Positions 14,816 through 35,022 of a DNA stretch of 64,000 nucleotides are shown here, piece after piece. Positions within the stretch are counted from its first letter, which is position 1. Each line of letters opens with the position of its first letter. The notes beneath the pieces are model-generated. The model was not told the DNA's origin and searched no databases. It saw only the letters and a program-made list of their open reading frames with translations. This stretch comes from Amniculibacterium aquaticum (GTDB taxonomy: Bacteria; Bacteroidota; Bacteroidia; Flavobacteriales; Weeksellaceae), in the NCBI RefSeq assembly GCF_003852705.1, contig NZ_REFA01000003.1, forward strand, positions 1 through 64,000. The letters run 5' to 3'. The position numbers and the translations under genes are program-made.

Positions 14816-16024
14816 TTATTTAATCACTCCACAAAAATCTAATACAATTTGATTTTCGTTGAATTCTAAATTTTTAAATTCTTCATGTGCTACTAACAAT
14901 ACAACAATATCTGCTTTAGTTATAGCTTCTTTATATTCTGTTAGTTTAAAAATTTTATGTTCATGTACATTTGGTTCAACAATAAATAAATCGGAATTAC
15001 CGGCTTCTTGAATAATACGTTCTGCAATATAAATAGCAGGAGATTCGCGTAAATCATCAATATTTGGTTTAAAAGCCAATCCCATAATAGCAATTGATGG
15101 TTGACGACCGTGTTTTAATTCGAACTCTAAACGAGCCGATTTTACTTTTTCTGCACACCAAAAAGGTTTATAATTATTCGTTAAACGCGCTTGAGCAATC
15201 ATTCGAGATTCCATCGGATAATCTGCAGTAATAAAATACGGATCTACAGCAATACAATGTCCACCAACACCACAACCTGGTTGTAAAATATTTACACGCG
15301 GGTGTTTGTTTGCTAAATGGATTAACTCCCAAACATTGATTCCGGCTTTATCACAAATTAATGATAATTCGTTAGCAAAAGCAATTTGTACATCACGCGA
15401 AGAGTTTTCGGTTAATTTACACATCTCTGCGGTACGCGCATTTGTAGGATGTAATTCACCTTTAACAAATTGAGCATAAAACTCGATTGCTTTTTTTGTA
15501 GAAGTTTCATCAACTCCACCAATTACACGATCGTTATGTACTAATTCGTACATTACATTTCCTGGTAAAACACGCTCTGGACAATATGCTAAATAAATTT
15601 TATCTTTTAATTCTGGACGAACTGTAAAAATTAAATCCATCATTTTTTCTGTAGTACCTACAGGTGATGTAGATTCTATAATGTATAAATCTCCCTCTTT
15701 TAATAAAGGAATAATACCTTCTGTTGCTGCTTGTACATAAGAGATATCTGGTTCGTGATTCCCTTTAAATGGAGTTGGAACAACAATTAAATACGTATCC
15801 GCTGCTACAGCTTTTGTAGCTGCTTTTAAAAATCCGTTTGCTACGGCATTTGCAACAGATTTATCTAAATCAGGTTCTACAATATGAATTTTACCTTGAT
15901 TAATTGTATCTACCACGTGCTGAGAGATATCAACACCTAAAACTGGTATTTTATTTTCTGCTATTAAAGCAGAAGTTGGTAAACCGATATATCCTAAACC
16001 TATTGTTACTACTTTTGGATTCAT
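14816..16024 (-). CDS. wecC: UDP-N-acetyl-D-mannosamine dehydrogenase
   Basis: A 402-aa NAD-dependent nucleotide sugar dehydrogenase that oxidises UDP-ManNAc twice to UDP-ManNAcA. The N-terminal Rossmann motif is VVTIGLGYIGLP (about 5-16). The catalytic cysteine is Cys257 in GCGVGGHCIAVDP, and the signature SPVGTTEKM (about 120-128) and ESPA near the C-terminus are intact. The length matches WecC. It lies 31 bp after the WecB homologue, so the pair supplies UDP-ManNAcA from UDP-GlcNAc. It is within the AT-rich cassette. Confidence 0.93.
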   Translation of the reverse strand: MNPKVVTIGLGYIGLPTSALIAENKIPVLGVDISQHVVDTINQGKIHIVEPDLDKSVANAVANGFLKAATKAVAADTYLIVVPTPFKGNHEPDISYVQAATEGIIPLLKEGDLYIIESTSPVGTTEKMMDLIFTVRPELKDKIYLAYCPERVLPGNVMYELVHNDRVIGGVDETSTKKAIEFYAQFVKGELHPTNARTAEMCKLTENSSRDVQIAFANELSLICDKAGINVWELIHLANKHPRVNILQPGCGVGGHCIAVDPYFITADYPMESRMIAQARLTNNYKPFWCAEKVKSARLEFELKHGRQPSIAIMGLAFKPNIDDLRESPAIYIAERIIQEAGNSDLFIVEPNVHEHKIFKLTEYKEAITKADIVVLLVAHEEFKNLEFNENQIVLDFCGVIK

Positions 16025-16055
16025 TTTTTTATTTAGTTATTATTATCTAGTTATT

Positions 16056-17177
16056 TTATAGTGCCTTTATAAACTCTGCAATTCTTTCACAAGCTTTTCC
16101 ATCTCCATAAGGATTATGTAATTCACTCATAGAGTTATATTTTTCGTGATTATTTAATAAAAGGTTCGCTTCACTAATAATTTTATTCTTATCAGTCCCT
16201 ACTAAAATAACTGTACCTGCTTCCACAGCTTCTGGACGTTCTGTAGTATCTCTCATTACTAAAACAGGTTTCCCTAACGATGGAGCTTCTTCTTGCACTC
16301 CTCCTGAATCTGTAATAATCATGTACGATTGTGTCATTAACCATACAAATGCAGGATATGCTAATGGATCTATTAATTTAATATTATCAACTGCTGCTAA
16401 AATTTCGTTAACAGGTTTTTGAACATTTGGATTTAAATGAACAGGATAAATAATCTGAACATCATCAGTATGTGTTTCAGCAATTTCTTTTAATGCTTCA
16501 CAAATATTTATAAATCCTTGTCCATGATTTTCACGACGATGTCCTGTTACTAAAATTAATTTTTTAGTTGAATCAACTATATTTTTTAATGCTTCTATTT
16601 CACTATTATCTATTTCTTTTACACGAGAAGAACTATCTAATAAAGCATCAATAACCGTATTACCAGTAATTACAATATCCTCTTCTTTAATATTTTCTTT
16701 AATTAAATTATCGAATGATTGTTGTGTTGGAGCAAAGTGATAATCAGCTAATCTACCTGTTAATTGTCTGTTCATTTCTTCAGGAAATGGAGACCATTTG
16801 TTATGTGTTCTCAATCCAGCTTCGATATGACAAACTTTTGCTCCTGAATAAAATGCAGCTAAAGCAGCTATAGAAGATGTTGATGTGTCTCCATGCACAT
16901 AAACATAATCAGGTTTAAAGTCATCTAATATTGGCTTTAAATCTGTAATTATATCAGCTGTTAGCGTATATAAGTTTTGGTTTGGCTTCATCAGATTTAA
17001 ATCATAATCAGGTTTTATTTCAAAAAAATCTAATACCTGATCTAACATTTCTCTGTGCTGAGCTGTTACACAAACTTTAGTTTCAAATTCTGTATTTTTT
17101 TGAAATTCTTTTACCAATGGAGCCATTTTAATAGCTTCTGGCCTTGTTCCAAAAATTATTAAGTGTTTAGTTTTCAT
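16056..17177 (-). CDS. wecB: Non-hydrolysing UDP-N-acetylglucosamine 2-epimerase
   Basis: A 373-aa cytoplasmic enzyme interconverting UDP-GlcNAc and UDP-ManNAc. It shows [15 protein letters not shown] at the N-terminus (about 8-22), VHGDTSTS (about 94-101), [15 protein letters not shown] (about 132-138), TGHRRENHG (about 215-223) and [14 protein letters not shown] (about 291-304), all diagnostic for WecB. It sits 9 bp after ugd copy 1 and directly before wecC. It could also feed an essential ManNAc pathway, but the context favours capsule. Confidence 0.95.
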
Positions 17178-17186
17178 TTTGTGTTT

Positions 17187-18353
17187 TTAATCGTTACCAA
17201 ATAAATCGCGTGTATATACTTTGTTTTTAACATCAATTAAATCATCTGTCATTCTATTAGATATAATTACATCACATTCTTGTTTAAACTTATCTAAATC
17301 TTTCATAACAGTAGAACCGAAAAATGTTTCTTCATCTAAAACTGGTTCATAAACAACAACTTCAATTCCTTTTGCTTTGATACGCTTCATGATTCCTTGG
17401 ATTGCTGATGCTCGGAAATTATCAGATCCTGATTTCATTATCAAACGATAAATCCCTACTATTTTAGGTTCTTTTTCAATTATTGAATTCGCTATAAAAT
17501 CTTTTCGCGTTCGATTTGAATCAACTATTGCTTTGATTAAATTATTTGGTACTGTATCGTAATTCGCTAATAATTGTTTTGTATCTTTTGGTAAACAATA
17601 GCCTCCGTATCCAAATGATGGATTATTGTAATGAGAACCAATACGTGGATCTAACCCTACTCCTTGAATTATCTGTTTACTATCTAAATTATAAGTCTGC
17701 GCATAACTATCTAACTCATTGAAATATGCAACACGAAGAGCTAAATAGGTATTAGAAAACAATTTTATTGCTTCGGCTTCTGTTGAATTGGTAAACAAGG
17801 TTGGTATATCAGTTTTTATCGCTCCTTCTTTTAAAAGATTTGCAAATTGTTCGGCTCTTTCGCTTATTTCTCCAACGATGATTCGAGAAGGATATAAATT
17901 ATCGTATAATGCTTTTCCTTCTCGTAAAAATTCAGGAGAAAAAATTACATTTTCAATTCCTAAATCTTCTTTTATTTTTTGTGTAAAACCAACTGGAACG
18001 GTTGATTTAATAATCGCAATTGCTTTTGGATTTATAGTTTTTATGTCTTTTAATACAACTTCTACACTTGTTGTATTGAAGTAATTTGTAGATGGATCGT
18101 AATCTGTAGGGGTTGCTACAATTACAAAATCAGCATTTTTATAAGCTTCTACTTTATCTAATGTTGCTTTAAAATTTAAAGATTTATTGGATAAAAAATC
18201 ATTAATTTCAGTATCTTCAATCGGAGATTGTTTATTATTTAACAACGCAATTTTTTCTGGAACAATATCCAACGCAATTACTTCGTTATTTTGTGCCAAA
18301 AGCATCGCATTTGATAAACCGACATAGCCTGTTCCTACAACTGTTATTTTCAT
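17187..18353 (-). CDS. ugd: UDP-glucose 6-dehydrogenase, AT-rich copy
   Basis: A 388-aa single-domain-type UDP-glucose dehydrogenase making UDP-glucuronate. It has [16 protein letters not shown] (about 5-20), KSTVPVGFT (about 116-124), [20 protein letters not shown] (about 138-157) and the catalytic Cys253 in [10 protein letters not shown]. It is nearly the same protein as the one at 20826-21992, with the same length, but the DNA is clearly more AT-rich. It forms the right end of the AT-rich cassette, 2 bp after the stop of the preceding dehydrogenase gene. The likely explanation is that it came in with the cassette while the other copy is resident. Confidence 0.93.
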
Positions 18354-18355
18354 TA

Positions 18356-19690
18356 TTACAATCTATTATCAGCTTCAGCTAAAATCCCCTTTACATCATA
18401 AATAATTCCACCTTCTTTTAGGTATTGAGATAAATCTAAAGTTGTAAATTCTTTGTGTGCTACTGTTAGGATGATGGCATCAAATTGGTTTTCGGCTGTT
18501 GGTTGTTGGTTGTCGGTGGTTAATGACTGGTGACTGGTGATGCCGTATTCGTGCATCACTTCTGCCGGATTGGCCCAAGGGTCAAAAGTGCTTACCTCCA
18601 AACCATAATCTTCCAATGCTTTGATGACATCTACGGCTTTGGTATTGCGTACATCAGGGCAATTTTCTTTGAAAGTAATCCCCAAATTCAAGATTTTGGC
18701 TCCATTGACATGGATGTTTTTCTTGATCATGGTTTTCACGACTTGAGAGGCTACATATTCGCCCATAGAGTCGTTCAATCTTCTACCGGCCAAAATAATT
18801 TCCGGATGATAGCCGTGTTCTTGTGCTTTTTGTGCCAAATAATAAGGATCCACACCGATGCAATGTCCACCTACCAATCCTGGTTTGAACGGAAGGAAGT
18901 TCCATTTGGTTCCGGCCGCTTCCAATACCGCATGGGTATCGATATCCAAAATATTAAAAATTTTAGCCAATTCATTCACAAAAGCAATGTTAATGTCGCG
19001 TTGAGAATTTTCAATTACCTTGGCAGCTTCGGCTACTTTAATGGTCGGTGCCAAATGCGTACCGGCAATGATGACTGATTTGTACAAATCGTTTACAACT
19101 TCTCCAATCTCCGGTGTAGAACCCGAAGTTACTTTCAGTATTTTTTCGACCGTATGCTCTTTATCGCCCGGATTGATGCGCTCTGGAGAATAGCCTGCAA
19201 AGAAATCTTCGTTAAATTTAAGGCCAGATACACGTTCTAATACAGGAATACATTCTTCTTCAGTTACTCCTGGATAAACCGTGGATTCATAAATCACGAT
19301 GTCTCCCTTTTTTAGGACTTTTCCTACGGTTTCAGAAGATTTATATAGTGGCGTCAAATCGGGTCTGTTGTTTTTATCGACCGGAGTAGGAACGGTAACA
19401 ATGTAATAATTACAATCTTTAATATCCTCCAAATTATTACTTACAAAAAGTCCGTTTTCTGAATTATTTTCAGATTTTAATACCGCTTGAAGAATATCAT
19501 CCTCAACTTCCAAGGTAGAATCTTTCCCTTGTCTTAATTCGCTAATTCTACTTTGGTTAATATCAAAACCAACAACATTATATTTGGTAGCAAACAACCT
19601 AGCTAGTGGCAATCCTACATAACCTAAGCCAATGATGGCGATTTTATGACTTGGAGTCTGAGTTTCTTGATGTATATTTTTTGTTTCCAT
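18356..19690 (-). CDS. UDP-HexNAc 6-dehydrogenase, TviB/WbpO-like
   Basis: A 444-aa NAD-dependent dehydrogenase related to TviB (Vi antigen) and WbpO. It has [15 protein letters not shown] (about 19-33), [15 protein letters not shown] (about 135-149), [15 protein letters not shown] (about 166-180) and the catalytic Cys277 in [12 protein letters not shown]. It would oxidise UDP-GlcNAc or UDP-GalNAc to the uronate. With the 4-epimerase encoded next to it, the product is probably UDP-GalNAcA. Residues about 385-402 ([15 protein letters not shown]) are an insert encoded by 7-bp repeats at 18489-18537. The gene is GC-richer than ugd copy 1 next door, so the cassette boundary falls in the 2-bp gap. 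Confidence 0.9.
18489..18537 (-). repeat. Heptamer repeats inside the TviB-like gene
   Basis: Seven consecutive 7-bp units are readable on the plus strand: TTTTCGG, CTGTTGG, TTGTTGG, TTGTCGG, TGGTTAA, TGACTGG, TGACTGG. They encode the insert before [13 protein letters not shown]. The middle units are identical to those in the PglE-like gene at 1349-1376. The tract lies about 135 bp from the edge of the AT-rich cassette. Confidence 0.82.
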
Positions 19691-19726
19691 AATTATTTTT
19701 GATAAGTTTTTTTATTTTTTGTGTTG

Positions 19727-19812
19727 GTTAGACGGTTAGACAGTTAGATGGTTAGAATGATAAATAATCCCAATTACTTCCTAACTTTCTAACTTCTTAA
19801 CTTCTTAACTTC
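19727..19812. repeat. Two inverted octamer repeat tracts
   Basis: Left tract: four 8-bp units GTTAGACG, GTTAGACA, GTTAGATG, GTTAGAAT at 19727-19758. Right tract: CTAACTTT, CTAACTTC, TTAACTTC, TTAACTTC at 19781-19812, approximately the reverse complement. Together they could form a long, imperfect hairpin in the gap between two genes of the operon, ending 1 bp before the epimerase stop codon. Confidence 0.85.
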
Positions 19813-19813
19813 C

Positions 19814-20788
19814 TCACAACATCTCCTTATGTTCCCAATACCATTTCACGGCTTCTTTTAAACCGCTTTTAATAGGATGAGTCGGTTCATAGCCCAGCAT
19901 TTGTTTTGCTTTGTCCACCGAAGCCAATGAGTGTGGAATGTCGCCTACTCTATTGGGTCCGTATTTAATTTCAATATTAGAAATCCTGTGGTCGTATTCC
20001 GCTAAAAATTCTTTTAAATATTCAGCCAATTGGTTCAGATTGGTTCTATCGCCCACTGCGGTGTTATAAACGGTATTGACCGCTTCGGGATTTTCTGTTA
20101 GCATCGCCAATTCATTCATCTGAATGACATTGTCGATATAAGTGAAATCTCTGGAGTTTTCGCCGGTTCCGTTGATGGTTGGGCTTTCATTCTGAATGAA
20201 CAATTTGGTAAACAACGGAATAACTGCTGCATAAGCCCCTTGAGTATTCTGTCTTCTTCCAAAAACATTAAAATACCTGAGTCCGATGCACGACAAACCA
20301 TAGGTTTTTGCAAAAACATCGGCATACAATTCATTGACATATTTGGTTACTGCATAAGGAGAAAGAGGCTTCCCAATTACATCTTCCACCTTTGGTAAAG
20401 ATTCAGAGTCTCCGTAAGTAGAGGAAGAAGCGGCATACACAAATCGTTTGATGTTTTGGTCTCTTGAAGCCGTTAGCATGTTTAAAAATCCGCTTACATT
20501 GACTTCATTGGAAGTGATTGGATCTTTAATGGATCTAGGAACCGAGCCTAATGCCGCTTGATGCAAGACAAAATCCATACCTGCACACGCTTTTTGGCAA
20601 GTCTCCAAATTTCGGATATCACCTTCTATTAATTCATAGTTTTTGTTGGCTAAAAATTCTTCTACATTGTGCTTGTAGCCTGTAGAAAAATTATCCAAAC
20701 ATCTTACAAAATAACCTTTATTTAAAAAATACTCGGTAAGATTGGAACCAATAAATCCGGCTCCTCCGGTAATTAATATTCGTTTCAT
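19814..20788 (-). CDS. UDP-HexNAc 4-epimerase, TviC/WbpP-like
   Basis: A 324-aa extended short-chain dehydrogenase. The NAD motif GGAGFIGSN lies at about 8-16. The catalytic set is the serine run near 121-123 with Tyr145 and Lys149 in SPYAVTKY. HQAALGSVPRSIKDP (about 76-90) is the signature seen in TviC/WbpP, which prefer N-acetylated UDP-sugars. Working with the TviB-like dehydrogenase, it would give UDP-GalNAcA. The 123-bp gap to that gene holds the octamer repeat tracts. Confidence 0.9.
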   Translation of the reverse strand: MKRILITGGAGFIGSNLTEYFLNKGYFVRCLDNFSTGYKHNVEEFLANKNYELIEGDIRNLETCQKACAGMDFVLHQAALGSVPRSIKDPITSNEVNVSGFLNMLTASRDQNIKRFVYAASSSTYGDSESLPKVEDVIGKPLSPYAVTKYVNELYADVFAKTYGLSCIGLRYFNVFGRRQNTQGAYAAVIPLFTKLFIQNESPTINGTGENSRDFTYIDNVIQMNELAMLTENPEAVNTVYNTAVGDRTNLNQLAEYLKEFLAEYDHRISNIEIKYGPNRVGDIPHSLASVDKAKQMLGYEPTHPIKSGLKEAVKWYWEHKEML

Positions 20789-20825
20789 AGTTTAGTTTTT
20801 AGTTTTAGTTTAAATCCTCAATATA

Positions 20826-21992
20826 TTAATCCCCCCCAAACAAATCTCTGGTAAACACTTTCTCTTTCACTTCTTCCAATTCTGGAGCGTTGCGGTTGGA
20901 GATGATGACATCGCATTCCTGTTTGAAGGCTTGCAAATCCTTCATCACTCTGGAGCCAAAAAAGGTTGCGTCTTCCAGTACCGGTTCATAGACCACCACC
21001 TCTATCCCTTTGGCTTTTATTCTTTTCATGATGCCTTGTATCGCCGAGGCACGGAAGTTGTCGGATCCGGATTTCATGATCAATCGGTAAACGCCTACTT
21101 TTTTAGGATTTTTGGCGATGATGGTATCGGCAATAAAATCTTTTCGGGTACGGTTGGCATCCACAATGGCTTGTATGATGTTGTTGGGTACCGCATCGTA
21201 ATTCGCCAAGAGCTGTTTGGTATCTTTTGGCAGGCAATATCCACCGTAACCAAAAGAAGGATTGTTGTAATGCGAACCAATTCTTGGATCCAGTCCTACG
21301 CCTTCTATGATTTGTTTGCTGTCCAAATTATGGATTTGCGCATAGGAATCCAACTCGTTGAAGTACGCCACACGCATCGCCAAATAGGTGTTGGAGAACA
21401 ACTTGATGGCTTCGGCTTCCGTAGAGTTGGTGAACAAGGTAGGCACCTCTTGTTTGATGGCGCCTTGTTGCAAGAGCTGTGCAAAGATTTTTGCCCTTTC
21501 GCTTTGCTCACCAATGATGATCCTGGACGGATAAAGATTGTCGTACAAGGCTTTGCCCTCTCTGAGAAATTCCGGAGAGAACATGATATTTTGAACCCCG
21601 GTTCTTTCCTTCAAATCTTGGGTAAAGCCCACCGGTACGGTCGATTTGATGATGATGACCGCCTGTGGATTGTGGTTTTGCACTTCCTGCACCACGGCTT
21701 CCACAGATTGGGTGTTGAAATAATTGGTTTTGGGATCGTAGTCCGTAGGGGTAGCCACAATGACAAAGTCGGAATTTTTATAGGCTACTTCTTTATCTAA
21801 AGTCGCTTTGAAATTAAGCTTCTTGGATTGTAAAAATTCGGAAATTTCTTTGTCCTCGATGGGAGAAATTCCTTTGTTCAGCATTTCTACTTTTACTGGA
21901 ATGATGTCTAAGGCTACGACCTCGTTATGCTGTGCGAGAAGCATCGCATTGGAGAGTCCTACATATCCGGTTCCTACAACGGTTATTTTCAT
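20826..21992 (-). CDS. ugd: UDP-glucose 6-dehydrogenase, resident copy
   Basis: A 388-aa UDP-glucose dehydrogenase with the same motif set as the copy at 17187-18353: [39 protein letters not shown] and Cys253 in [10 protein letters not shown]. Its GC content matches the genes next to it (wzc, the epimerase), so it looks like the original gene of this locus. It supplies UDP-glucuronate. It is the third gene from the system A promoter, after wza and wzc, 24 bp downstream of wzc. Two intact copies 2.5 kb apart in direct orientation could recombine and delete the two genes between them. Confidence 0.93.
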
Positions 21993-22016: not shown

Positions 22017-24386
22017 TTACCAAAGGCCTAAAAAGCCTTTCTTTTTGTTTTTTTCGTGCAGGTGTCCATATCCATATCCATATCCATATCCATATCCATA
22101 ACCTTTGGAGTAGTCTATCCCGTTGATGATGACGGCAAGGTTGTTGAGTTTATGGGATTCGTAGGATTCTTCCAATACGGCAAGCATTCTCTTGTCCATG
22201 TGGTTGACACGGGTGAGATAGAGCGTAAGGTCTGCATGTTTTGCAATGATCTGCGCATCGCCCACCAAAGAAACCGGAGGGGCATCTAAGATGATGTAAT
22301 CGTACTGGGACTTCCATTGGTTGATCAGTTGCTCCAATCGATCGGTCATCAACAATTCGGCAGGATTGGGTGGTATGCTCCCGGAGTGGAGAATGTCGAA
22401 CCCGTATTTGGCTGTGCTCTTGATAATCGTTTGAGACAGATCCAATTGTTCATCGGCCAAGAGATTGGACAAGCCCGACTGGGATTTGTACGCATCCAAA
22501 TCCATGTACGCCAATAGTTTTGGAGATCTAAAATCGGCACCTATCAGTAAAACTTTCTTTTTGGATAGGGAAATAATCTGCGCTAGATTGATGGACGCAA
22601 ATGTCTTGCCCTCTCCGGGAATGGCAGAGGTTAGCAATATGGTTTTGCAGCCTTCGACCTGTGGCATCATGAACTGCAGATTCCCACGCAATATCCTGAA
22701 CGATTCGGCTACTGAAGAGTGGTCGTTGTTGGAAATGACATAGTTGGGTACTTCTGCCAAAGGAATATCTCCCAAGATGGGTCCTTTGTATATTTTTTTG
22801 ATGTCGTGTCTGCTTTTTACTTTATTATCCAGCATAAAGAGCAGATACAGAATGGAGACCGGAATGACCAACCCCAAGATGAACGCTCCAAGGTAGATGA
22901 TGTTTTTCTTAGGACTTACGGGGATGCCGTTGCTGTACGCCAGATCCACAATTTTTATGGCATCTACTTTTGCCGATGCCTTAATCTCGGCTTCTTCTCT
23001 TTTCTCTAACAAGAAAAGGTAGATGGCTTCGACAATTTGCTGTTGTCTGGCAATTTTTTTGAAACCCAATTCTTGCTGAGGCATCTTGTTGAGCTTGGAA
23101 GTCAACTCCCCTTTTTTTGCCTCTACGGCTGACAATCTTGTCTGAAGTGTAGATTGGAACAGTCTCAGGTTATTTTTTACAGAAGATTTTACATCTCTAA
23201 TGTTCTCATTTAGAGCCTGCATGACAGGATTGGCGTCCTTCATGGACTTGCTAAGGTCTTGTTTTTCCAGTACCAATTGGTTGTAGCTGTCGATCCCGGA
23301 ATTGAGGCTAACATCTTCCAGACCTACATTGGCCGGCAAGAGCACATCTTTGGAACGGCTAAGGTTGGCCATCATTTGGTTTGCAATTTGAAGCTGAGCG
23401 GTTAGGGAAACCACATCTTTGTCCACTTGGAAGGCATTGGTCATGTACATCCCGCCTTCGGCTTGCAGGTCGTTGACTTTATTGCTTGTTTTGAAACTTT
23501 CCATGGACTTGTCCACACCGGAAAGGTCGTTGGAAATGATCTTCAAACGGTTGTTGATAAAGTCAGCCGTAGCTTTGGAAATTACATTTTTATCTTCCTG
23601 CAAATCGGTGTTGTACACATCGATCAGGGTATTGATGGTGCTTTCGGCTTTTTTGACATCGTTGCTCACCAAAGAGAGGTTGACCACTTTGGACTTGCCG
23701 TCTTTTTCGGCTTCCACCTGAAGCCGGTTTCTCAATTTATCCGCTGCAAAATTAATGGACTGAAAATGAACCTCAAAAGCTTGAGCGCCTGAGAATTTTT
23801 TAGGATTTTTATTGATGACGAAGAGTCCAAAGTCGGATTTCACCGGTGTTCCGTAGGTGTATTTTCCTTCTTGAACGAAGGATTTGTCTAAAATCTCATA
23901 GCCTTCCTTACTCAACTTCAAAAATAGAGAACCTTTCAGTTTTTCATCGTGAAAAACATTTGGATTTTGAAATGAAAACACAACAGGGCTTTCGGATTTA
24001 GAAACCTCTGAAGTATTGATCCTTCCTTTGTTGATGTACTGTACATTAAGCTCATTTTTTTCCACGACTTTGGTCATCAATCTTCTGGACTTTAGAATCT
24101 TGGATTGATCCGTAACCATGGCGTTGTCTTTGGAACCGAAGCTGACTGCATCTTTAATGGCCTCCAATTCTGGAGAAGCTGCATCTTTGTCCTTCAACAA
24201 GATCTGTGCAGAAACATTGTACTGTTTTGTGGCGTATCTTAAATATAAAAACGCTAAAGATAAACACAGGAAAATGGATAACAAAAACCATTTCCAATAG
24301 GCGATGTATTTTTCTAAAAGTTCTCTTAAATTAATGGTTTCCTCTTCTTGTTCGGTGTTGTATTGAGAAAAATTCTGATTGTCCAT
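22017..24386 (-). CDS. wzc: Wzc-like polysaccharide co-polymerase / tyrosine autokinase, system A
   Basis: A 789-aa inner-membrane BY-kinase. The ATG at 24386 (MDNQNFSQYN) is chosen: the in-frame extension upstream runs into wza. There is a membrane helix near 35-55, a large periplasmic coiled-coil region, and a second helix near 515-540. The kinase domain has Walker A GEGKT (about 591-595), Walker A' GADFR (about 616-620) and Walker B LDAP (about 700-703). The C-terminal tail is an alternating Tyr-Gly run (about 762-775), the likely autophosphorylation cluster, encoded by a hexamer repeat. Wzc controls chain length and export together with Wza. It starts 8 bp after wza. Confidence 0.93.
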   Translation of the reverse strand: MDNQNFSQYNTEQEEETINLRELLEKYIAYWKWFLLSIFLCLSLAFLYLRYATKQYNVSAQILLKDKDAASPELEAIKDAVSFGSKDNAMVTDQSKILKSRRLMTKVVEKNELNVQYINKGRINTSEVSKSESPVVFSFQNPNVFHDEKLKGSLFLKLSKEGYEILDKSFVQEGKYTYGTPVKSDFGLFVINKNPKKFSGAQAFEVHFQSINFAADKLRNRLQVEAEKDGKSKVVNLSLVSNDVKKAESTINTLIDVYNTDLQEDKNVISKATADFINNRLKIISNDLSGVDKSMESFKTSNKVNDLQAEGGMYMTNAFQVDKDVVSLTAQLQIANQMMANLSRSKDVLLPANVGLEDVSLNSGIDSYNQLVLEKQDLSKSMKDANPVMQALNENIRDVKSSVKNNLRLFQSTLQTRLSAVEAKKGELTSKLNKMPQQELGFKKIARQQQIVEAIYLFLLEKREEAEIKASAKVDAIKIVDLAYSNGIPVSPKKNIIYLGAFILGLVIPVSILYLLFMLDNKVKSRHDIKKIYKGPILGDIPLAEVPNYVISNNDHSSVAESFRILRGNLQFMMPQVEGCKTILLTSAIPGEGKTFASINLAQIISLSKKKVLLIGADFRSPKLLAYMDLDAYKSQSGLSNLLADEQLDLSQTIIKSTAKYGFDILHSGSIPPNPAELLMTDRLEQLINQWKSQYDYIILDAPPVSLVGDAQIIAKHADLTLYLTRVNHMDKRMLAVLEESYESHKLNNLAVIINGIDYSKGYGYGYGYGYGYGHLHEKNKKKGFLGLW
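22065..22100 (-). repeat. Hexanucleotide microsatellite (TCCATA x6) in the wzc tail
   Basis: Six perfect TCCATA units encode the Tyr-Gly alternation at the Wzc C-terminus. Slippage by one unit would add or remove one Tyr-Gly pair without changing frame. Confidence 0.93.
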
Positions 24387-24394
24387 GAAAAAAA

Positions 24395-25144
24395 TTAACG
24401 GGTGATGATGGCGATTAACGAAACGGCAATACTGATGGCCCCAATCCAAATGGAATAGTTGACCACGGAGTTTTGTACCTGAGCTCTATTCGGTTCTACA
24501 TAGACCAAGTCATTTTGTTGCAGGTAGTACGCAGGAGAATCCAAGACTTCTTTTTTGGTAAGGTCCAAAGTATAAGTCGTTTTTTGTCCGTTTTTTTCAC
24601 GGATCACCAAGACATTTTCTCTTTTCCCCTGTATGCTAAGATCTCCAGCCATGGCGATGGCTTCTAGAACGGTTACCCTTTCGGTGGGCAGCGTAAAGTT
24701 ACCCGGTCTTGCAACTTCTCCCAAAACGGAGACTCTGAAATTGGTAAAGTTGATGTTAACTCCAGGATCTACGATGTACTTGTTGAGTTTTTCTTTGATT
24801 TCGTCGGTTGCTTGTTGACGGGTTAGTCCAGCCAATTGAAGTTTCCCGAGTATTGGAAAATCGATGCTTCCGTCTTGCTGTACGGTATAATTTTTAGCAG
24901 TACTTGCAGTTGCGGCACCCGTTTGTGACAATTGGTTAAAAGGCGCTGCAGCCTTCATGTCCACAGCGGTCACATTGATCGCCAAGATATCGTCTGCCTG
25001 AATTTTAGGAATGTTGTTTTCGTAAAGGGTGTTGAGATTTGCATCTCCCTGAAAATACACAATATTTTTTTTGGAAGCGCAAGAAAAAAGCACGAAAAGT
25101 ATAGAAAAACCGAGGAAAATCGGCTTCAATGCTGGTCGTTTCAT
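24395..25144 (-). CDS. wza: Wza-like polysaccharide export outer-membrane lipoprotein, system A
   Basis: A 249-aa export protein. The signal peptide ends in a lipobox (LFSC, Cys about 22). A polysaccharide-export domain (ADDILAINVTAVD, about 51-63) and an SLBB domain (VSVLGEVARPGNFTLP, about 139-154) follow, and a hydrophobic C-terminal helix (YSIWIGAISIAVSLIAII) ends the protein. It forms the export channel together with Wzc. It is the first gene of system A, about 33 bp from a -7 box at 25178-25185. Confidence 0.9.
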   Translation of the reverse strand: MKRPALKPIFLGFSILFVLFSCASKKNIVYFQGDANLNTLYENNIPKIQADDILAINVTAVDMKAAAPFNQLSQTGAATASTAKNYTVQQDGSIDFPILGKLQLAGLTRQQATDEIKEKLNKYIVDPGVNINFTNFRVSVLGEVARPGNFTLPTERVTVLEAIAMAGDLSIQGKRENVLVIREKNGQKTTYTLDLTKKEVLDSPAYYLQQNDLVYVEPNRAQVQNSVVNYSIWIGAISIAVSLIAIITR

Positions 25145-25208: not shown

Positions 25209-25284
25209 ATTAGGAATGTTAAATTTAAAAAAATGTTTGATTTAGTGAATGTCCTTCGGTAGTTGACGGAACTTTGATGAAGGG

Positions 25285-25340
25285 ATGGAGTGATGGAGTG
25301 ATGGGGTGATGGAGTGATGAAGGGAAGGAGTGATGGAGGG
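25285..25340. repeat. Octamer tandem repeat (ATGGAGTG-type, seven units)
   Basis: Seven 8-bp units follow one another: ATGGAGTG twice, then ATGGGGTG, ATGGAGTG, ATGAAGGG, AAGGAGTG, ATGGAGGG. The tract lies between the system B terminator and the system A promoter, and no gene covers it. Confidence 0.85.
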
Positions 25341-25360: not shown

Positions 25361-25396
25361 AAAAACGAGCTGAAGACTTAGTTTCCGCTCATTTTT
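25361..25396 (-). terminator. Terminator of system B, overlapping a stop codon
   Basis: On the minus strand AAAAATGAGC pairs with GCTCGTTTTT (10 bp, one G-T wobble) around a 16-nt loop, followed by more T. The 5' arm lies inside the last codons of the phosphoglycosyl transferase gene. Confidence 0.65.
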
Positions 25397-26322
25397 ACGA
25401 CGACTTTTACAGTCTTCAACAAGGTTTCTACATCTAAAAATATGGACATGTTCTTGATGTAGTAAAGGTCGTATTCTAATTTTTTCAGATTGTCTTTGGG
25501 CGTTGCTTTGGGCAAATGCACCTGAGCCCAACCGGTAACTCCGGGTTTTATGATGTGCCTAAGATCAAAGTAGGCATTTTCGTCGTTGGCCATTCTTACA
25601 AACTCTGGTCTTTCCGGCCGTGGTCCTATTAAAGACATATCGCCTTTTAGAATGTTAAGGATCTGCGGCAGCTCGTCGATCTTGGTCAGCCTGAGCCATT
25701 TACCAATTTTCAACACTCGGGAATCTTTGGCTTCTGTATAACCGCCGCTGTGTTTCAGCTTCATGGTTCTGAGCTTATAGATGTTAAAAGGTTTGGAGTT
25801 TTTCCCTACTCGCTCTTGTACAAAAAAGACTTTTCCCGGTGAGGAAATCCAAATAAGCACAGCTCCTAAAAGAATGAGTGGCAAAGCAAAAGGGATAAGA
25901 AGAATGGAAATGAGCAAATCGATGAATCTTTTGAGAAAAAGATATCCGGTTTTATTTCCCAAAGACAGGGTTTCATCGGCCAAATAGGTATTGGTATTGT
26001 ATTTGACCAAAGGAACTCTTTGGTTGACTAATTCGTAAAAGTCGTGGATTTCGAAAACCTTAACGCCCATGAATTTCGAAGCGACCAACTCGTGGGTAAG
26101 CTGTTGGGATATGGAGCGCACACTGGATGCTTCAACAATAATGTACTGTATATTATTGTCCTTACAAAAGTCGGTATTTAATTCTTCTTCAACAGAATCA
26201 AAATGAAATGCTTTGTAATTTTTATCGAACTTTTTACCGTCGAACAATTTTTTAGAAATATCGTTGACATTGATAAAAAGACAATTAATTTTTCCCGTTC
26301 TGAATCTACCCTCCACTTTCAT
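25378..26322 (-). CDS. Polyprenyl-phosphate sugar phosphotransferase, system B
   Basis: A 314-aa initiating phosphoglycosyl transferase. Residues 1-125 form a Rossmann/CoA-binding-like domain (YIIVEASSVRSISQQL, GVKVFEIHDFYE), followed by one membrane segment (about 133-160) and the catalytic domain with FFVQERVGK, YKLRTMK, Asp216-Glu217 in KIDELPQ, LKGDMSLIGPRPERPEF and PGVTGWAQV. It lacks the four N-terminal membrane helices of full-length WcaJ/WbaP, so it is intermediate between WbaP and PglC. It primes the lipid carrier for system B and is the last gene of that operon. Confidence 0.9.
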   Translation of the reverse strand: MKVEGRFRTGKINCLFINVNDISKKLFDGKKFDKNYKAFHFDSVEEELNTDFCKDNNIQYIIVEASSVRSISQQLTHELVASKFMGVKVFEIHDFYELVNQRVPLVKYNTNTYLADETLSLGNKTGYLFLKRFIDLLISILLIPFALPLILLGAVLIWISSPGKVFFVQERVGKNSKPFNIYKLRTMKLKHSGGYTEAKDSRVLKIGKWLRLTKIDELPQILNILKGDMSLIGPRPERPEFVRMANDENAYFDLRHIIKPGVTGWAQVHLPKATPKDNLKKLEYDLYYIKNMSIFLDVETLLKTVKVVVKMSGN

Positions 26323-28554: not shown

Positions 28555-29368
28555 GGATAAGGTCTTCAATTTTTAAATTGTCTAGTGGAATTGCATTTCT
28601 ATTTTGAATCATCAAACCTTCTTTACCCACCAAGTCCATTAAAAAATATACGGCTTGAGCGGCAAAATAGCGCAATGCAAATTTAATAAAAATAGGGCTG
28701 TAGCCGTGTTTCTTCAAGGCATACAGTACTCCTTTATTTCCTTTTACATATTTCTTCCAATATTTGTTACCAAACTCTCTGTAAAACAACAAAGGCTCTG
28801 ATAATTTCATGAATTTGGATTGCTGAAACTGACTGAGCCACAATTCAGCATCTTCAATTCTTTCTGCTTGTACATCGTAAGGATGTTTTCTGAACCATTC
28901 GGTTTTTGCCATAACGGTTGGGTGCCAAAATGTTCGTACCGGGACGACTTTCTCTGTACTTATTTCATCACGAATGCCGTTGACCGCATCGTTTTCGTCT
29001 ATGGAATAAATATTGGTTCCCAAAACATCAATAGTAGGATCTTGAAGCAAGGCTTGCAACTGTTTGGCAATTCTTTCGGGATGCATGATGTCATCGGCAT
29101 CCATGCGGGCCAGATATTCGGTTTCGACCAAAGATGGAATTTGGTTAAGTCTGAAACCTAAATTTTTATTCATTCCGTCTGAATACACCTTAATTCTAGG
29201 ATCTTTTTCTGCATATTTATTCGCAATACCCAAAGATCCGTCGGTAGATCCATCGTCCATTAACAACAGGACAAAATCTTTATGGGTTTGCCAAAGAACA
29301 GACTCTATGGCCTGTGCCAAATAGGTTTGAGCATTGTAAAAAGGTATGGCAATGGTTACCGCTGTCAT
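28541..29368 (-). CDS. GT2-family glycosyltransferase, system B
   Basis: A 275-aa GT-A enzyme. The ATG at 29368 (MTAVTIAIPFYNA) gives the canonical first strand and a 4-bp ATGA overlap with the upstream polymerase gene; any longer start would sit inside that gene. There are LMDDGSTDGSLGIA (about 34-47) and the metal-binding ARMDADDIMHPERI (about 86-99). A C-terminal hydrophobic stretch may attach it to the membrane. It overlaps the beta-helix gene by 14 bp. Confidence 0.9.
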   Translation of the reverse strand: MTAVTIAIPFYNAQTYLAQAIESVLWQTHKDFVLLLMDDGSTDGSLGIANKYAEKDPRIKVYSDGMNKNLGFRLNQIPSLVETEYLARMDADDIMHPERIAKQLQALLQDPTIDVLGTNIYSIDENDAVNGIRDEISTEKVVPVRTFWHPTVMAKTEWFRKHPYDVQAERIEDAELWLSQFQQSKFMKLSEPLLFYREFGNKYWKKYVKGNKGVLYALKKHGYSPIFIKFALRYFAAQAVYFLMDLVGKEGLMIQNRNAIPLDNLKIEDLIHGKV

Positions 29369-30444
29369 GATTGATAATACATAGATTGGAAAATTACAAA
29401 AATTATGGCTAGGAACAATACGGAAACTATTGAAGTTCGGTACTGTCCGTTTTCTGCAAAAGCAGGTGCCAATAAAAAGGGGATAAACATCCAAGACATG
29501 ACTCCCCAACGATCGGAAAAAGGCAATTGGAACATCATAAAAAACATCATACTCAGCGCCATATAAGTCTTGAATAAGACATCATAGTTTTCTTGCTTTT
29601 GTCCATACTTTCGAATGAGAAAAAAGATGAGCAAAAACAGGGTATTAAAAATAACAAACTGAGGTTTGAAACCGATGCTAAATTCTTTATCGAAAGATCC
29701 GTCGATGTATTTGGACTTTCTATCTCCTGCAAAAACATCACCCAAAACCGGCCCTAAGGAGAGTAAACTTACCTTAAAATACGCCAAAACAACAAATACA
29801 AAGTACAGTACGGTATAATATTTTATTGGCAATTTCCTAAAGACATTCACCAAAATTAATACGACAATAATAGCAATACTGGTTACATGGAATCCTACAG
29901 AGCAGAGAGCCGCCAACAGCCACAGTGCAACATTTCTAGGATTACGAAGATATAAAGCCACAGCCAAAAGCAAAAATGCCAACGAAACTCCTTGCCGAAC
30001 AATATTGACCCCTAAACTTTGAAAACTGTACAAACTAACAAAGGAAAACAACACAAACAAGACATTGTATTGGAATTTTCTAGAAAAAACAAGACTTGCC
30101 AAATACAAGACCAACAAATACAATGCGGATAGAGAGAAAATATAATATCGGGGATCGTTAGACCAACCGTGTACAAAAGCCATGAACCATTTGACCAAAA
30201 TCTCAGTACCAAAATCAATCTTTTTATAATAGGTGTATTGATATTTGTACATCAAAGTATCGGTACCTACTTTGTAATCCCGCAGTCCAAAAAGAATGAC
30301 AATAGCGGTCATAAAAAATACAGAAACCAAAACCCCTAAAGTTTGTGCTTGCTTTCTGCGCACATCGACCTTCAATGCAAACAACAATGCAAAGAATACG
30401 AAAAATGCATACATTAAAAAATATGTAAAATTAAATTCTTTCAT
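29365..30444 (-). CDS. wzy: EpsG-like polymerase (Wzy) of system B
   Basis: A 359-aa protein with about ten hydrophobic helices. The EpsG-type signature GLRDYKVGTDTLMYKYQY (about 53-70) follows the second helix, with the conserved R-D-x-x-x-G-T-D-T. It is expected to polymerise the system B repeat unit at the periplasmic side. It is unrelated at first sight to the system A polymerase except for this loop. It lies 25 bp after wzx. Confidence 0.8.
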   Translation of the reverse strand: MKEFNFTYFLMYAFFVFFALLFALKVDVRRKQAQTLGVLVSVFFMTAIVILFGLRDYKVGTDTLMYKYQYTYYKKIDFGTEILVKWFMAFVHGWSNDPRYYIFSLSALYLLVLYLASLVFSRKFQYNVLFVLFSFVSLYSFQSLGVNIVRQGVSLAFLLLAVALYLRNPRNVALWLLAALCSVGFHVTSIAIIVVLILVNVFRKLPIKYYTVLYFVFVVLAYFKVSLLSLGPVLGDVFAGDRKSKYIDGSFDKEFSIGFKPQFVIFNTLFLLIFFLIRKYGQKQENYDVLFKTYMALSMMFFMMFQLPFSDRWGVMSWMFIPFLLAPAFAENGQYRTSIVSVLFLAIIFVIFQSMYYQS

Positions 30445-30469: not shown

Positions 30470-31759
30470 TTATTCCATTATTTTTCTTTTGAAAATAATC
30501 ACAAATGTAATAAAGTAAAGGATAAACAAAAACATATAGGCCATAGCAGCGCCATCGACTCCAAAACGATCGACCAAAAAATAAGTGAGAACGATCTGGA
30601 CAACAATGGCCAATACATCAATAACAATAACCGTCCACACTTTGGCTCTTGCCACCAAAGCAAAGCTGAGAATCTGAGCACAAACCTTAAAAAAATCGCC
30701 AATCAATTGATATTGAAACAAACTCTGAGCCGGCAAGAAGCTTTCATCGGCCAAAAGTATAATCATCCAATATTTGAAAATAAATATCGCCAACAGCAAA
30801 ACCACCACGATCGGTACGATCATTTTATAAACCGATTTTATCTCGCTCACGATGGATTCATACGATTTTAACGAGGATATTTTGGGAATGAAATAAGTGG
30901 TAACCGTAAGAGAAAAAAACATGAGACTTGCACCAGAAATCCTGAGTACCAACTCATAAAGCCCGGCTGAAGACAAACTTACTTTGTCGATAATGATGTT
31001 CCGAATCACGATCGCCGACCATGGGAAAAATGCATACGAAACGATTCCCAACAAGCCAAAATGCGCTAGACTTTTGAGGTGTGGGATTTGAATTTTCTGC
31101 ATGAAATGGTCTTTCTTAAACCATTCTTTTTTTCTTAGGACAAACAAGACCACCAAAAGTGAAAATACAGGAGCCAAAACCACCGAGAGTAAAGCGCCGG
31201 TTATCCCATAAAGATAAATAAATACCAATGACAATGCTAGAGTTATGACATTGGATATGATGTTGAGCCGATTGGTTAGTTTGTATTGTCTAAAACCATT
31301 GACCACAGAAATCAACAAATTATTGACCACATACAGCAAAAGCGAAACTCCAAAAACATAAAATACAATTTCGTACTGTTCCGAGTCGAATATCCAAACT
31401 GAAAAGGTTTTGGGCAGTATCAATAAAAATAATCCTATCGTTGATGACAATATTAACGACACCTGAAAGCATGTCGAAATAATCGATTTTAAATCGTGTT
31501 GATTTTGGTGTGTTGAATATTCTGAAATATACTTGATCAACCCCTGACTGAATGCACCACCTCCAAAAACCAAAACGATGAGTACAAAACTGTAGAGCTG
31601 TCCAAAAAGTGCCATACCCTCGGTACCCAACTTCAAAGCGATGAATTTCCCAATAATCAAGGTCGTTAGGATCTTAATCACGGAAGCAATGGCAGAATAG
31701 AAACTTGCCGAAACAAATTCCTTTCCTTTCAGTTTGGCCAAAATACCTTGAAGATTCAT
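30470..31759 (-). CDS. wzx: Wzx-type flippase of system B
   Basis: A 429-aa membrane protein with about 12 helices. The ATG at 31759 is preferred to a TTG 9 bp upstream. It starts with KEFVSASFYSAIASVIKILTTLIIGKFIAL, typical of the WzxE/polysaccharide-synthase branch, with LGTEGMALFGQLYSF resembling WzxE. It translocates the system B lipid-linked unit. It is 18 bp from wzc and 25 bp from wzy. Confidence 0.88.
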   Translation of the reverse strand: MNLQGILAKLKGKEFVSASFYSAIASVIKILTTLIIGKFIALKLGTEGMALFGQLYSFVLIVLVFGGGAFSQGLIKYISEYSTHQNQHDLKSIISTCFQVSLILSSTIGLFLLILPKTFSVWIFDSEQYEIVFYVFGVSLLLYVVNNLLISVVNGFRQYKLTNRLNIISNVITLALSLVFIYLYGITGALLSVVLAPVFSLLVVLFVLRKKEWFKKDHFMQKIQIPHLKSLAHFGLLGIVSYAFFPWSAIVIRNIIIDKVSLSSAGLYELVLRISGASLMFFSLTVTTYFIPKISSLKSYESIVSEIKSVYKMIVPIVVVLLLAIFIFKYWMIILLADESFLPAQSLFQYQLIGDFFKVCAQILSFALVARAKVWTVIVIDVLAIVVQIVLTYFLVDRFGVDGAAMAYMFLFILYFITFVIIFKRKIME

Positions 31760-31777
31760 TAGCGACAAAGCTCGATT

Positions 31778-34144
31778 TTAGGATCTAAAAATCTTTTGCC
31801 ACCATTTCTTTTCAGAAGCATGATATCCGTAACCTAGGGTATTTCCATAGCCGAAATTTCGCTTTTGAACATCGTTCAAAACAAAATTTACATTGTTCAA
31901 TCGTTTGGCCTCCACAGAATGGTTGGCAAATTCGATAAACGATCTTTCGGATTTTTCGGAACGCGTCATGTACAAAGTTGCATCGGCAATATCCGAAATA
32001 ATGAAGGTGTCCGTCACCAACATCAACGGCGCACAATCGATGATGAGATAGTCGTATTGGTCTTTTACCTGATCAATCAATTGACTGTATCTACCATTTT
32101 CCAACAGCGTGGTCGGATTTGGCGGAATGGTTCCGGAATAAATAATATCGCAATACTTAGAAAAAGGACTCGGATGCATGATACTTTCTACCGAATCGAC
32201 ATTCTCTGAAAGATACTCGGACAGACCGGGAGCCGAAAACTTGCTCGGGTCGTAGCGTTGCAACTGAGGATTTCGGATGTCCGAACCGATCAACAAAACT
32301 TTTCTTTTTGGTGACCCCAAAGCTATGGCCAAATTGGATGACACAAAGGTTTTCCCTTCTCCTTTTGATGAGGAAGTGATCATGATGATCCTACCTTTAT
32401 CTTTTTTCGGTAATATAAAATTAAGATTGGTCACCAGAATCCTAAACGCTTCAGCCATGGGCGACACATCGTTCATCTGAATAAGCGGTTGGGCTTTACG
32501 ATCCAAACGAGGGATCTCACTGATGATTGGGATGTTGGACATCTTCTCGATGTCGTGCTTGGTTTCAATACTGTTGTTGAACAATTCTTTGAGATAGATG
32601 AAAGTAAATGGCAATAACAATCCAAGAACTAACGAAGCCAAAAGAATGATCATTTTCTTAGGTGATTCCGGCTTTTTTAAGGTGTAGGCTTGATCGATTA
32701 CCCTAGCCTTATCCGATGTCATGGCCAAAGAAATGGCGGATTCTTCTCTTTTTTGTAAAAGCAAAAGATAAAGACCTTCCTTGATCTGTTGTTGTCGTTC
32801 TATGGTTCGGAATAATTTTTCCTGAGTTGGGAATTTATTTATTTTGGAATCAAAACTTCCTTGTTGCGAAATGATTTGAGCCCTGGACATATTCAAGGCT
32901 GAAATGTGTTTAGCCAAACCTTCTTTCACAGAATTGCGCATTTGTTTAATTTGAGCTTCCACCTCTATCACCAAAGGGTTTTCTTCGGTTGCATTTTCCA
33001 ACAATTTATTTCTTTGCAAGACCAAAGAGTTGTACACTTCTATATTCTTACTGGCGGCAACATTGTCCAGACCTACATTGGCCGGTAGGGTCTGTCCCAG
33101 TCCTTGTTTGTTAAGAAATCCTAGAAGCATCTGGCTCATCTGAAGTTGGTTTTCCAAATTCAATTCTTTAGCCGTAGCTTCGGTGCTTAGTTGCAGATTG
33201 AGTTTAGCTTCAGTAGGGATATCAACAATTTCGTTGGATTTTTTAAATCGTTCTCTTTCGTTTTCTACATCGCCTAATTCTTTGGAAATGATGGAAATCC
33301 TCTCATCGATAAAATCTTTTGTTCTTTTGGACTCGGTATTCTTATCGGTAATCGCATCCAGATTGTAGTATTTCACCAAAGTATTAAGAAATTCTTTAGA
33401 TTTCTCCCTATTTTCACCTACCAACACCAGATTGATCACCGTAGCATCTTTATCGGCCAAATCCACAGTCAGTTGTTTTTGAAAACCTTCTACAGCATCG
33501 GCAAAAGTTTGATATCTGAATTTGAATTCGTTATCGTTTCTAAACTTCAAAAATTTAGGCTTTTGATAAGCTTTATTTTTCTGAATGATGATGTTGGCAA
33601 AAGGTAGAGAAATGGTTTTATCAAACTCAGACTTAATTTTCCCAGATAATTCAGGAGAAGAAATCACCAATTGATTTCCATTGATTTCCACTTCAATTTG
33701 TTCTTTAGGAAATTTTTCAACTTCTTTTTCAGCAAGTACATGCACCGTAAAAGGACTGGTTTTTTGGTACAACTCGCTGTCGTAATACTTACCAATGCTG
33801 AACACCGGAATTTGCACCCCCAAATCTTTCACAACATCGCCGATGAGTTTTTTGGTACGGAAAACTTCCAATTCGTTTTCGATGCTGTTGGTTCCCATCC
33901 CGCTAAAACCGGCTAAATTTTGCAAGACCCCAAAATCTCCAGAAGCCGAAGACATTTTTTTGGCATCTTTGATAAGGACTTTGGTTTCGGATTTGTAAAC
34001 CGGAGCGGTTATTTTGATGTACACCAAACTCAACGCCAAAAACATTGCAACGCAAAAAGCAAATGTTTTCCATTTGCTGATGTAAGGTTTCAAAATATCG
34101 CTAAGATTGGTCTCTTTTTTTATTTTTCCTGCTTCTTGATTCAT
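31778..34144 (-). CDS. wzc: Wzc-like polysaccharide co-polymerase / tyrosine autokinase, system B
   Basis: A 788-aa BY-kinase; the ATG at 34144 is preferred to an in-frame TTG 9 bp upstream. The first membrane helix is near 32-52 and the second near 520-540, with a long periplasmic coiled coil between. The kinase core has Walker A GEGKT (about 595-599), Walker A' GSDIR (about 620-624) and Walker B IIDCAP (about 701-706). The tail carries a few tyrosines (FGYGNTLGYGYHASEK), much shorter than the repeat-encoded tail of the system A paralogue. It should regulate length and export through the Wza encoded 65 bp upstream. Confidence 0.92.
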   Translation of the reverse strand: MNQEAGKIKKETNLSDILKPYISKWKTFAFCVAMFLALSLVYIKITAPVYKSETKVLIKDAKKMSSASGDFGVLQNLAGFSGMGTNSIENELEVFRTKKLIGDVVKDLGVQIPVFSIGKYYDSELYQKTSPFTVHVLAEKEVEKFPKEQIEVEINGNQLVISSPELSGKIKSEFDKTISLPFANIIIQKNKAYQKPKFLKFRNDNEFKFRYQTFADAVEGFQKQLTVDLADKDATVINLVLVGENREKSKEFLNTLVKYYNLDAITDKNTESKRTKDFIDERISIISKELGDVENERERFKKSNEIVDIPTEAKLNLQLSTEATAKELNLENQLQMSQMLLGFLNKQGLGQTLPANVGLDNVAASKNIEVYNSLVLQRNKLLENATEENPLVIEVEAQIKQMRNSVKEGLAKHISALNMSRAQIISQQGSFDSKINKFPTQEKLFRTIERQQQIKEGLYLLLLQKREESAISLAMTSDKARVIDQAYTLKKPESPKKMIILLASLVLGLLLPFTFIYLKELFNNSIETKHDIEKMSNIPIISEIPRLDRKAQPLIQMNDVSPMAEAFRILVTNLNFILPKKDKGRIIMITSSSKGEGKTFVSSNLAIALGSPKRKVLLIGSDIRNPQLQRYDPSKFSAPGLSEYLSENVDSVESIMHPSPFSKYCDIIYSGTIPPNPTTLLENGRYSQLIDQVKDQYDYLIIDCAPLMLVTDTFIISDIADATLYMTRSEKSERSFIEFANHSVEAKRLNNVNFVLNDVQKRNFGYGNTLGYGYHASEKKWWQKIFRS

Positions 34145-34209: not shown

Positions 34210-35022
34210 TTATTTTCTAACAAAAAGAGCCAACAACCCCAAAGCTACGGATGCCACAGAGATCCAAACGGTGGTTTGTGGACCAAAAGCCGAGGCGTTC
34301 TGTCTAGTTTTGTTGGCAGGAACCACAATGATGTCGTTTTGTTTTAAAAAATAATACGGCGAATTGATAAACTCCGATTTGGAGATATCGATGGTGTGAC
34401 TGACCGGCGTACCGTCGGTATTCCTAAGTACCATAATTTTATTTCGCTCGCCGTAGATGGTCAAATCTCCCGCCATGGCTATGGCTTCTAAGACATTGAT
34501 GTTTTGCCCATCCGGTACGGTAAAACGACCGGCTTTATTGACTTCTCCCAAAACGGAGATTTTAAAATTAACCAATCGAACACTTACCGAAGGTTCTTTG
34601 ATGTATTTTTTCAATCGATCCTGAAGTTCATTTTTCAATTGCTCTGTGGATTTATTTTCCGTACGGATCAATCCCAGTTCTGGAAATTGTATGCTGTTGT
34701 CTGCACCTACCGTATAGGTGGGCCCAGAAAAAGGCACCTGAGTCTGTGTAGGAACATTGGAGCTCGGTGTCGAATACAAAGGATTTTCGGACGAGGAATA
34801 ATTTTGGTTAAATGGTTTGGCTACATTGTTGTCTTTTGCAGAAACCAAAATCATCAGATGATCCCCCGGCTGAATGGTAAAAACCGAATTTTCTTTGGAA
34901 GAAGCCAAGGCAACCTGCTGAATATCTTCCATATAATTGATATTTGTTTTTGACTTACAAGAAGTCAGCACCACTAAAATAGTAGAAATTAAAAACAAAT
35001 AGGATTTTTTCTTCATAATCAT
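34210..35022 (-). CDS. wza: Wza-like polysaccharide export outer-membrane lipoprotein, system B
   Basis: A 270-aa lipoprotein. Signal peptide with lipobox LTSC (Cys about 22); two ATG codons, 6 bp apart, are possible. A polysaccharide-export domain (GDHLMILVSAKDN, about 53-65) is followed by an insert rich in Ser/Pro/Thr, an SLBB domain (ISVLGEVNKAGRFTVPDG, about 154-171) and a C-terminal hydrophobic helix. It is paralogous to the system A export protein. It lies 35 bp after the PglF homologue. Confidence 0.9.
   Translation of the reverse strand: MIMKKKSYLFLISTILVVLTSCKSKTNINYMEDIQQVALASSKENSVFTIQPGDHLMILVSAKDNNVAKPFNQNYSSSENPLYSTPSSNVPTQTQVPFSGPTYTVGADNSIQFPELGLIRTENKSTEQLKNELQDRLKKYIKEPSVSVRLVNFKISVLGEVNKAGRFTVPDGQNINVLEAIAMAGDLTIYGERNKIMVLRNTDGTPVSHTIDISKSEFINSPYYFLKQNDIIVVPANKTRQNASAFGPQTTVWISVASVALGLLALFVRK

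Follow-up and report, generated by a model that had tools for sequence, protein, structure and literature searches.

Does a perfect hexanucleotide microsatellite at the 3' end of a polysaccharide tyrosine autokinase gene allow a bacterium to change, one residue at a time, the number of tyrosines in the kinase tail, and with it the surface polymer? The question is raised by wzc-A, a gene in a 64-kb window (the whole stretch of DNA analysed), for which a preliminary description had proposed a length-variable tyrosine tail and graded, rather than on/off, phase variation of capsule chain length.

Genomes and surveys

The genus comparison comprised the window genome (G000) and two MAGs, SZAS-81 (G001) and SZAS-80 (G002), with one genome per species. 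A pattern of four TATGGA units was scanned against one genome per species in about 85,000 species. Given that the matches are by design selected for TATGGA, two unselected sets were therefore examined: 118 tails from Bacteroidota, each having three or more Tyr-Gly (YG) units, and the Sphingorhabdus orthologs of one pure-tract match, which number 15 with that ascertained member and 14 without it.

The hexamer tract and its kinase

The features on which the argument turns are as follows.

22017..24386, minus strand: wzc-A, BY-kinase / PCP-2a polysaccharide co-polymerase (Pfam, NCBIfam, Wzc structures)
22065..22100, minus strand: perfect (TATGGA)6 microsatellite encoding (Tyr-Gly)6 (sequence, translation)
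22020..22106, minus strand: C-terminal tyrosine tail of wzc-A, KG(YG)6HLHEKNKKKGFLGLW (translation)

On the plus strand, positions 22065-22100 consist of six exact TCCATA units, equivalent to (TATGGA)6 on the coding strand, and lie in frame within an 810-residue open reading frame that likely begins at the ATG at 24386 (MDNQNF...) and ends at 22017, with DYSK immediately preceding the G(YG)6 of the product. Sequence and translation thus agree with the preliminary description in that six perfect units encode the Tyr-Gly run, each unit contributing one tyrosine with the frame kept. Seven tyrosines are found in the tail (Y780, 784, 786, 788, 790, 792, and 794 in ORF numbering), and YxY spacing is present, unbroken as YGY in six of them. 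The tract is the only period-6 array with at least four units in the window and the only TATGGA array of at least four units in the 2.55 Mb genome, and TATGGATATGGA has 5 overlapping matches in the window versus 0.01 expected from dinucleotide shuffling. It is a perfect short tandem repeat above chance, which is the property sought in contingency loci.

A single Wzc-A chain contains the Pfam domains Wzz (37-131), GNVR (465-534), and AAA_31 (602-726), all above cut-off, and scores 140 bits with the NCBIfam model TIGR01007 (polysaccharide biosynthesis tyrosine autokinase), whose cut-off is 108. Wzc-A is not an E. coli-type ortholog, because its score with the E. coli-type Wzc equivalog model (190 bits) is far under the cut-off of 1068; its best solved relatives are the cryo-EM structures of E. 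coli K30 Wzc (7nhr/9exo, E 5e-44). The Walker A motif is GEGKT (612-616), with its lysine at the site of K30 K540, and the Walker B region reads YDYIILDAPP (716-725). The acidic tyrosine-pocket residue of K30 Wzc, E675, aligns in an ungapped block with M755, and for this reason the ratchet may differ in detail in Wzc-A; the acidic residue is a trait of the K30 ratchet model and does not define the BY-kinase family. A genome search directed at CpsB/CapC-type phosphatases found none, nor did Pfam detect a phosphatase in the window genes on which it was run. Judged by its sequence, Wzc-A is an ordinary membrane BY-kinase with a genuine, probably disordered tyrosine tail, for which tail autophosphorylation is predicted.

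Two polysaccharide systems in the window

The genes surrounding wzc-A that are relevant to its function are listed below.

24395..25144, minus strand: wza-A, polysaccharide export protein (Poly_export, SLBB), presumed partner of wzc-A (Pfam)
25378..26322, minus strand: initiating sugar transferase (Bac_transf; Pfam)
20826..21992, minus strand: UDP-sugar dehydrogenase, directly downstream of wzc-A (Pfam)
12112-13311, minus strand: EpsG-family putative polymerase, candidate for system A by its position (Pfam)
13314-14813, minus strand: flippase, likewise a system A candidate by position (Pfam)
31778..34144, minus strand: wzc-B, second BY-kinase, short tail (Pfam, NCBIfam, translation)
34210..35022, minus strand: wza-B, export protein of system B (Pfam)
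29365-30444, minus strand: EpsG-family putative polymerase beside wzc-B (Pfam)
30470-31768, minus strand: flippase beside wzc-B (Pfam)

Because each wzc gene has an export protein, a flippase, and an EpsG-family gene, the window appears to hold two adjacent Wzx/Wzy-like systems. The wzc-B tail is NFGYGNTLGYGYHASEKKWWQKIFRS and serves as a control without a hexamer array; the earlier statement that the system B kinase lacks the repeat is therefore accurate.

Three further observations concern the same region. Four UDP-sugar dehydrogenase genes (at 14816, 17187, 18356, and 20826) form a single cluster at 14816-21992, and two of the products have 388 residues. The octamer TGATGGAG is present in eight imperfect copies (25275-25338) in the stretch that separates wza-A from the gene for the initiating transferase, and near the window edge, beside polysaccharide genes, there is a 260-base tandem duplication with 97% matches (418-959).

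Tract purity within the genus

The wzc-A ortholog of G001, 69% identical to that of G000, also carries six TATGGA units, and the copy in G002 is cut by the contig start after at least four units. All 12 tract codons agree between G000 and G001, while at conserved residues outside the tail the same codon is used for only 8 of 19 tyrosines and 7 of 23 glycines; the probability of this tract agreement by descent alone is 4e-6. Since the tract codons agree while synonymous codons elsewhere in the gene are scrambled, the purity of the tract is undergoing renewal. Pure TATGGA tracts of at least four units were found in 3 of the 321 genomes of the family, all three within the window genus. A third Wzc of the window genome (G000:C27, L039), also found in G001 (L037) and G002 (L038), has a longer YG tail with an uninterrupted run of 8 to 9 units spelled in mixed codons. 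With three such kinases in G000 and a pure array in one alone, the genome offers an internal contrast to the pure tract.

Recurrence across species

The pattern scan returned at least 80 loci with four or more TATGGA units, a lower bound ascertained on TATGGA, and 33 among the matches listed are BY-kinase C-terminal tails in the YG frame, including one tail-only contig (L096). As filed, these tails belong among others to Flavobacteriales, other Bacteroidota, Sphingorhabdus, a deltaproteobacterial MAG, Campylobacteraceae, Prochlorococcus, Oscillospiraceae, and a Woesearchaeota MAG. The 31 genomes outside the genus that have Wzc-tail arrays contain no further array of this kind, with the exception of G364, in which a second array of nine units sits in a second Wzc. 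In the listed kinase tails, 55 of the 90 YG units past the first four are TATGGA, compared to 21.3 ± 3.9 expected from the codon usage of each gene, and long pure runs thus exceed what random codon choice would give. The literature searched held no match for a Wzc tail with a perfect slippable array that recurs in several phyla and whose units turn over while the length is constant, which is no proof of novelty.

The repeat was also found in other settings. Read in another frame it encodes (Met-Asp)n, as in two multicopper-oxidase-like loci (L073 and L116) and a secreted-looking one (L059), and two orthologous, lipoprotein-like non-kinases of Flavobacteriaceae (L084 and L120) have TATGGA arrays of nine versus six units.

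Unit turnover at constant length in Sphingorhabdus

In the 14 Sphingorhabdus orthologs, adjacent units are identical in 45 of 72 cases versus 12.4 ± 3.4 expected, a difference whose z-score overstates independence because the species are related. The type of unit varies by species (TATGGG x8, TATGGC x6, TACGGC x4, and TATGGA x6), with TATGGC in many, TATGGG eight times in L344, TACGGC in L352 and L353, and TATGGA in the ascertained member, while tail length is six in 13 of the 14 orthologs (14 of 15 with the ascertained member). Shared descent cannot explain why one unit type has given way to another between species, and a change of unit with the length unaltered fits the prediction of slippage-type turnover combined with stabilising selection on length. 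A preference for good codons fails to predict this pattern, since GGG is the rarest glycine codon of these genes. On these comparisons, slippage-type unit turnover in Wzc tails is well supported, and tail length looks stabilised over the long term.

Unselected Bacteroidota tails and plasmid kinases

When the window genus is set aside, adjacent units of the Bacteroidota tails are identical 61 times versus 92 ± 7 in within-tail permutations, a depletion that has no comparable counterpart in the bodies of the surveyed genes; it persists with one tail per 60% cluster (z about -2.6) and is not significant with one per 50% cluster. In the same tails, units that lie two or three places apart are identical in excess, with 12- and 18-base repeats visible in some, and the depletion of adjacent identity is therefore in part higher-order tandem repetition. 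Selection against slippage was considered as a cause of the depletion and was rejected in view of these longer repeats and the loss of significance under 50% clustering. Eight loci (L221, L243, L274, L275, L283, L284, L303, and L308) have tails in which exact repeats of 18 bases (three YG) or 12 bases (two YG) follow one another, and YG runs of 4, 6, and 8 units are commoner in the survey than runs of 5, 7, and 9. In Dokdonia the tails are short and for the most part mixed. Against this background of sampled tails, the window tract is unusual for its phylum, and as most Bacteroidota Wzc tails are without a pure tract, slippability appears to be unnecessary for function.

The tails of 20 Bacteroidales plasmid kinases are identical, a comparison without power because the entire segment is identical too. 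Plasmid kinases of Levilactobacillus, Lactiplantibacillus, and Lactococcus have non-repetitive tails of constant length, except for one truncated by a stop codon; this is L327 (Lactiplantibacillus plantarum plasmid p3, NZ_CP071895.1), in which an early stop removes the CpsD tyrosine tail that six sister plasmids retain.

Variation in tail length

The suggestion that the tail is length-variable found no support in the lineages with the closest comparisons, in which both complete genus members and 14 of the 15 Sphingorhabdus orthologs have six units. The frame-keeping slippage mechanism proposed with it, in which the tyrosine number changes one at a time, is well supported by the comparisons between species, while standing length variation is partly contradicted by the constant length in these two lineages. 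Tails of other lineages do differ in length. L076 and L108, which are 84% identical, differ by one unit with otherwise gap-free flanks, L063 has 8 YG units and L109 has 6, and in Bacteroidota as a whole the longest YG run has anywhere from 1 to 13 units; searches of the genera of L108 and L063 yielded no second ortholog. Two MAG contigs break exactly inside a pure Wzc array (G002/L034 at position 1 and L133 at position 5664), and these breaks may stem from a sampled population in which repeat lengths were mixed, or from other assembly problems. Pneumococcal 19A subtypes reportedly have Wze tails with 3 versus 4 YGX repeats (PMC8519296), and to that extent there is precedent for the general idea of a change in repeat number.

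Proposed mechanism and alternatives

We lean somewhat towards a reading in which the tract is prone to slippage, its length is under stabilising selection, and variants with one tyrosine more or fewer are transient. As a pure six-base array, the tract is the shortest-period and most slippage-prone spelling of (Tyr-Gly)n. Through slippage of the strands, or through unequal exchange, whole units would be gained or lost with the frame intact and the units would be continually homogenised, and cells with one extra or one missing tyrosine would arise. Selection would hold the common length near six, such that variants would be a short-lived minority in the population and not fixed alleles. Slippage as the agent, the variants within a culture, and the effect on the polymer are all three parts that we infer.

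How such variants might act can be drawn from published work on Wzc. What counts in K30 Wzc is how far the tail is phosphorylated and not any particular tyrosine (PMC8285477; PMC11986026); the tail passes the active site of the neighbouring subunit from C to N, with tyrosine i-2 in the pocket preparing the step, and the octamer is unstable at the fourth phosphate (PMC11986026). Point variants of Wzc in Klebsiella change chain length (PMC10597399). By analogy with this ratchet, tail length could plausibly influence the length of the polymer. The uninterrupted YGYGYG tail would give each ratchet step its YxY partner (the i-2 tyrosine), and each slippage event could add or remove one step, shift the lifetime of the octamer, and so grade the amount or chain length of the polymer.

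The strongest alternative is that the purity of the tract is a neutral by-product: a (YG)n tail is required, any such tail is prone to short-period slippage, purity is passive, and length variants are deleterious and purged, with no role in tuning. We regard this as possible, though less likely than not. It would account for tails that stay at six units in the genus and in Sphingorhabdus while the units turn over, and it agrees with the length-stable, non-repetitive tails of several plasmid kinases and with the avoidance of adjacent identical units in most Bacteroidota tails. It sits less easily with the one-unit difference between L076 and L108, with the range of run lengths across Bacteroidota, and with the 19A subtypes (PMC8519296); because close species and 19A subtypes differ in tail length, some change in length seems to be tolerated or selected.

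A second alternative takes the opposite position, namely that a standing, reversible variation in tyrosine number tunes capsule chain length within a population, which is the graded phase variation originally proposed. The perfect in-frame array and the chain-length effects of Klebsiella Wzc mutations (PMC10597399) are in its favour, as are the 3 versus 4 Wze repeats reported for pneumococcus (PMC8519296) and the contig breaks within two pure arrays (G002/L034 and L133), which hint at mixed lengths. The two complete genus members, however, show no variation, length is constant in Sphingorhabdus, and the contig breaks may have arisen in other ways; on balance we consider it unlikely. Similarly doubtful is the broadest version of the proposal, a recurrent and independently evolved analogue dial in which slippage would set the number of Wzc ratchet steps one tyrosine at a time and polymer length would be under graded control that is heritable, in Bacteroidota, Alphaproteobacteria, cyanobacteria, and others.

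Two further explanations were rejected. Random synonymous choice could have produced six identical units, given that the probability of six TATGGA units for a (YG)6 stretch is 3e-4 under the average codon usage of window genes, that many tails exist, and that pure runs of at least four units in the Bacteroidota tail survey (5 observed versus 3.7 expected) are near the chance number; under the codon usage of wzc-A itself, however, in whose body TAT encodes 7 of 27 tyrosines (TAC the other 20) and GGA encodes 8 of 31 glycines, four glycine codons being used to a similar extent, the probability falls to (0.26 x 0.26)^6, or about 1e-7, and the pure tract is repeated in G001 despite near-saturated synonymous change, which makes chance highly improbable. 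Selection for TATGGA as the best-translated codons at the tail is just as hard to credit, as no specific point favours it, the gene body prefers TAC and has no preference for GGA, and the repeated codon varies among close Sphingorhabdus species, including GGG eight times over in L344.

Comparison with known systems

In-frame hexamer slippage is known from mutL of enteric bacteria, where two residues are affected per event and loss or gain disables MutL. These hexamers are six-base and frame-keeping like that of wzc-A, whereas MutL does not carry a series of phosphorylation sites. The Wzc proteins of E. coli K30 and K-12 (PDB 7NHR, 9EXO, 3LA6) share with Wzc-A the domain order, the Walker A and B motifs, the tyrosine tail, and an adjoining wza; the K30 tail, however, is irregular and has no DNA repeat, and Wzc-A is only distantly related in sequence. 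CpsD/Wze of S. pneumoniae likewise has a BY-kinase tail of Tyr-Gly repeats ([YGX]3-4), phosphorylation of which affects the capsule (PMC4574921), but unlike Wzc-A it is cytoplasmic, separate from the membrane part, and built on a three-residue unit; the pneumococcal sources consulted do not report a perfect microsatellite or slippage for this repeat, in contrast to the pure tract of wzc-A. The Wzc-like gene Amuc_1413 of Akkermansia is a poly-G simple-sequence contingency locus (PMC13055324) and, like wzc-A, a kinase-like gene for a surface polysaccharide with a repeat open to slippage. Its poly-G tract acts on/off by frameshift, while the wzc-A hexamer would keep the frame and change the residue count.

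Implications

The published Wzc model counts phosphorylated tyrosines, and a slippable tail whose units turn over while their number stays at six would be a natural experiment on that count as a ruler. If the proposed role is true, wzc-A and its analogues would join the few bacterial examples in which variation driven by a repeat is graded and not on/off. In the surveyed lineages, tyrosine count could be read from existing isolate collections.
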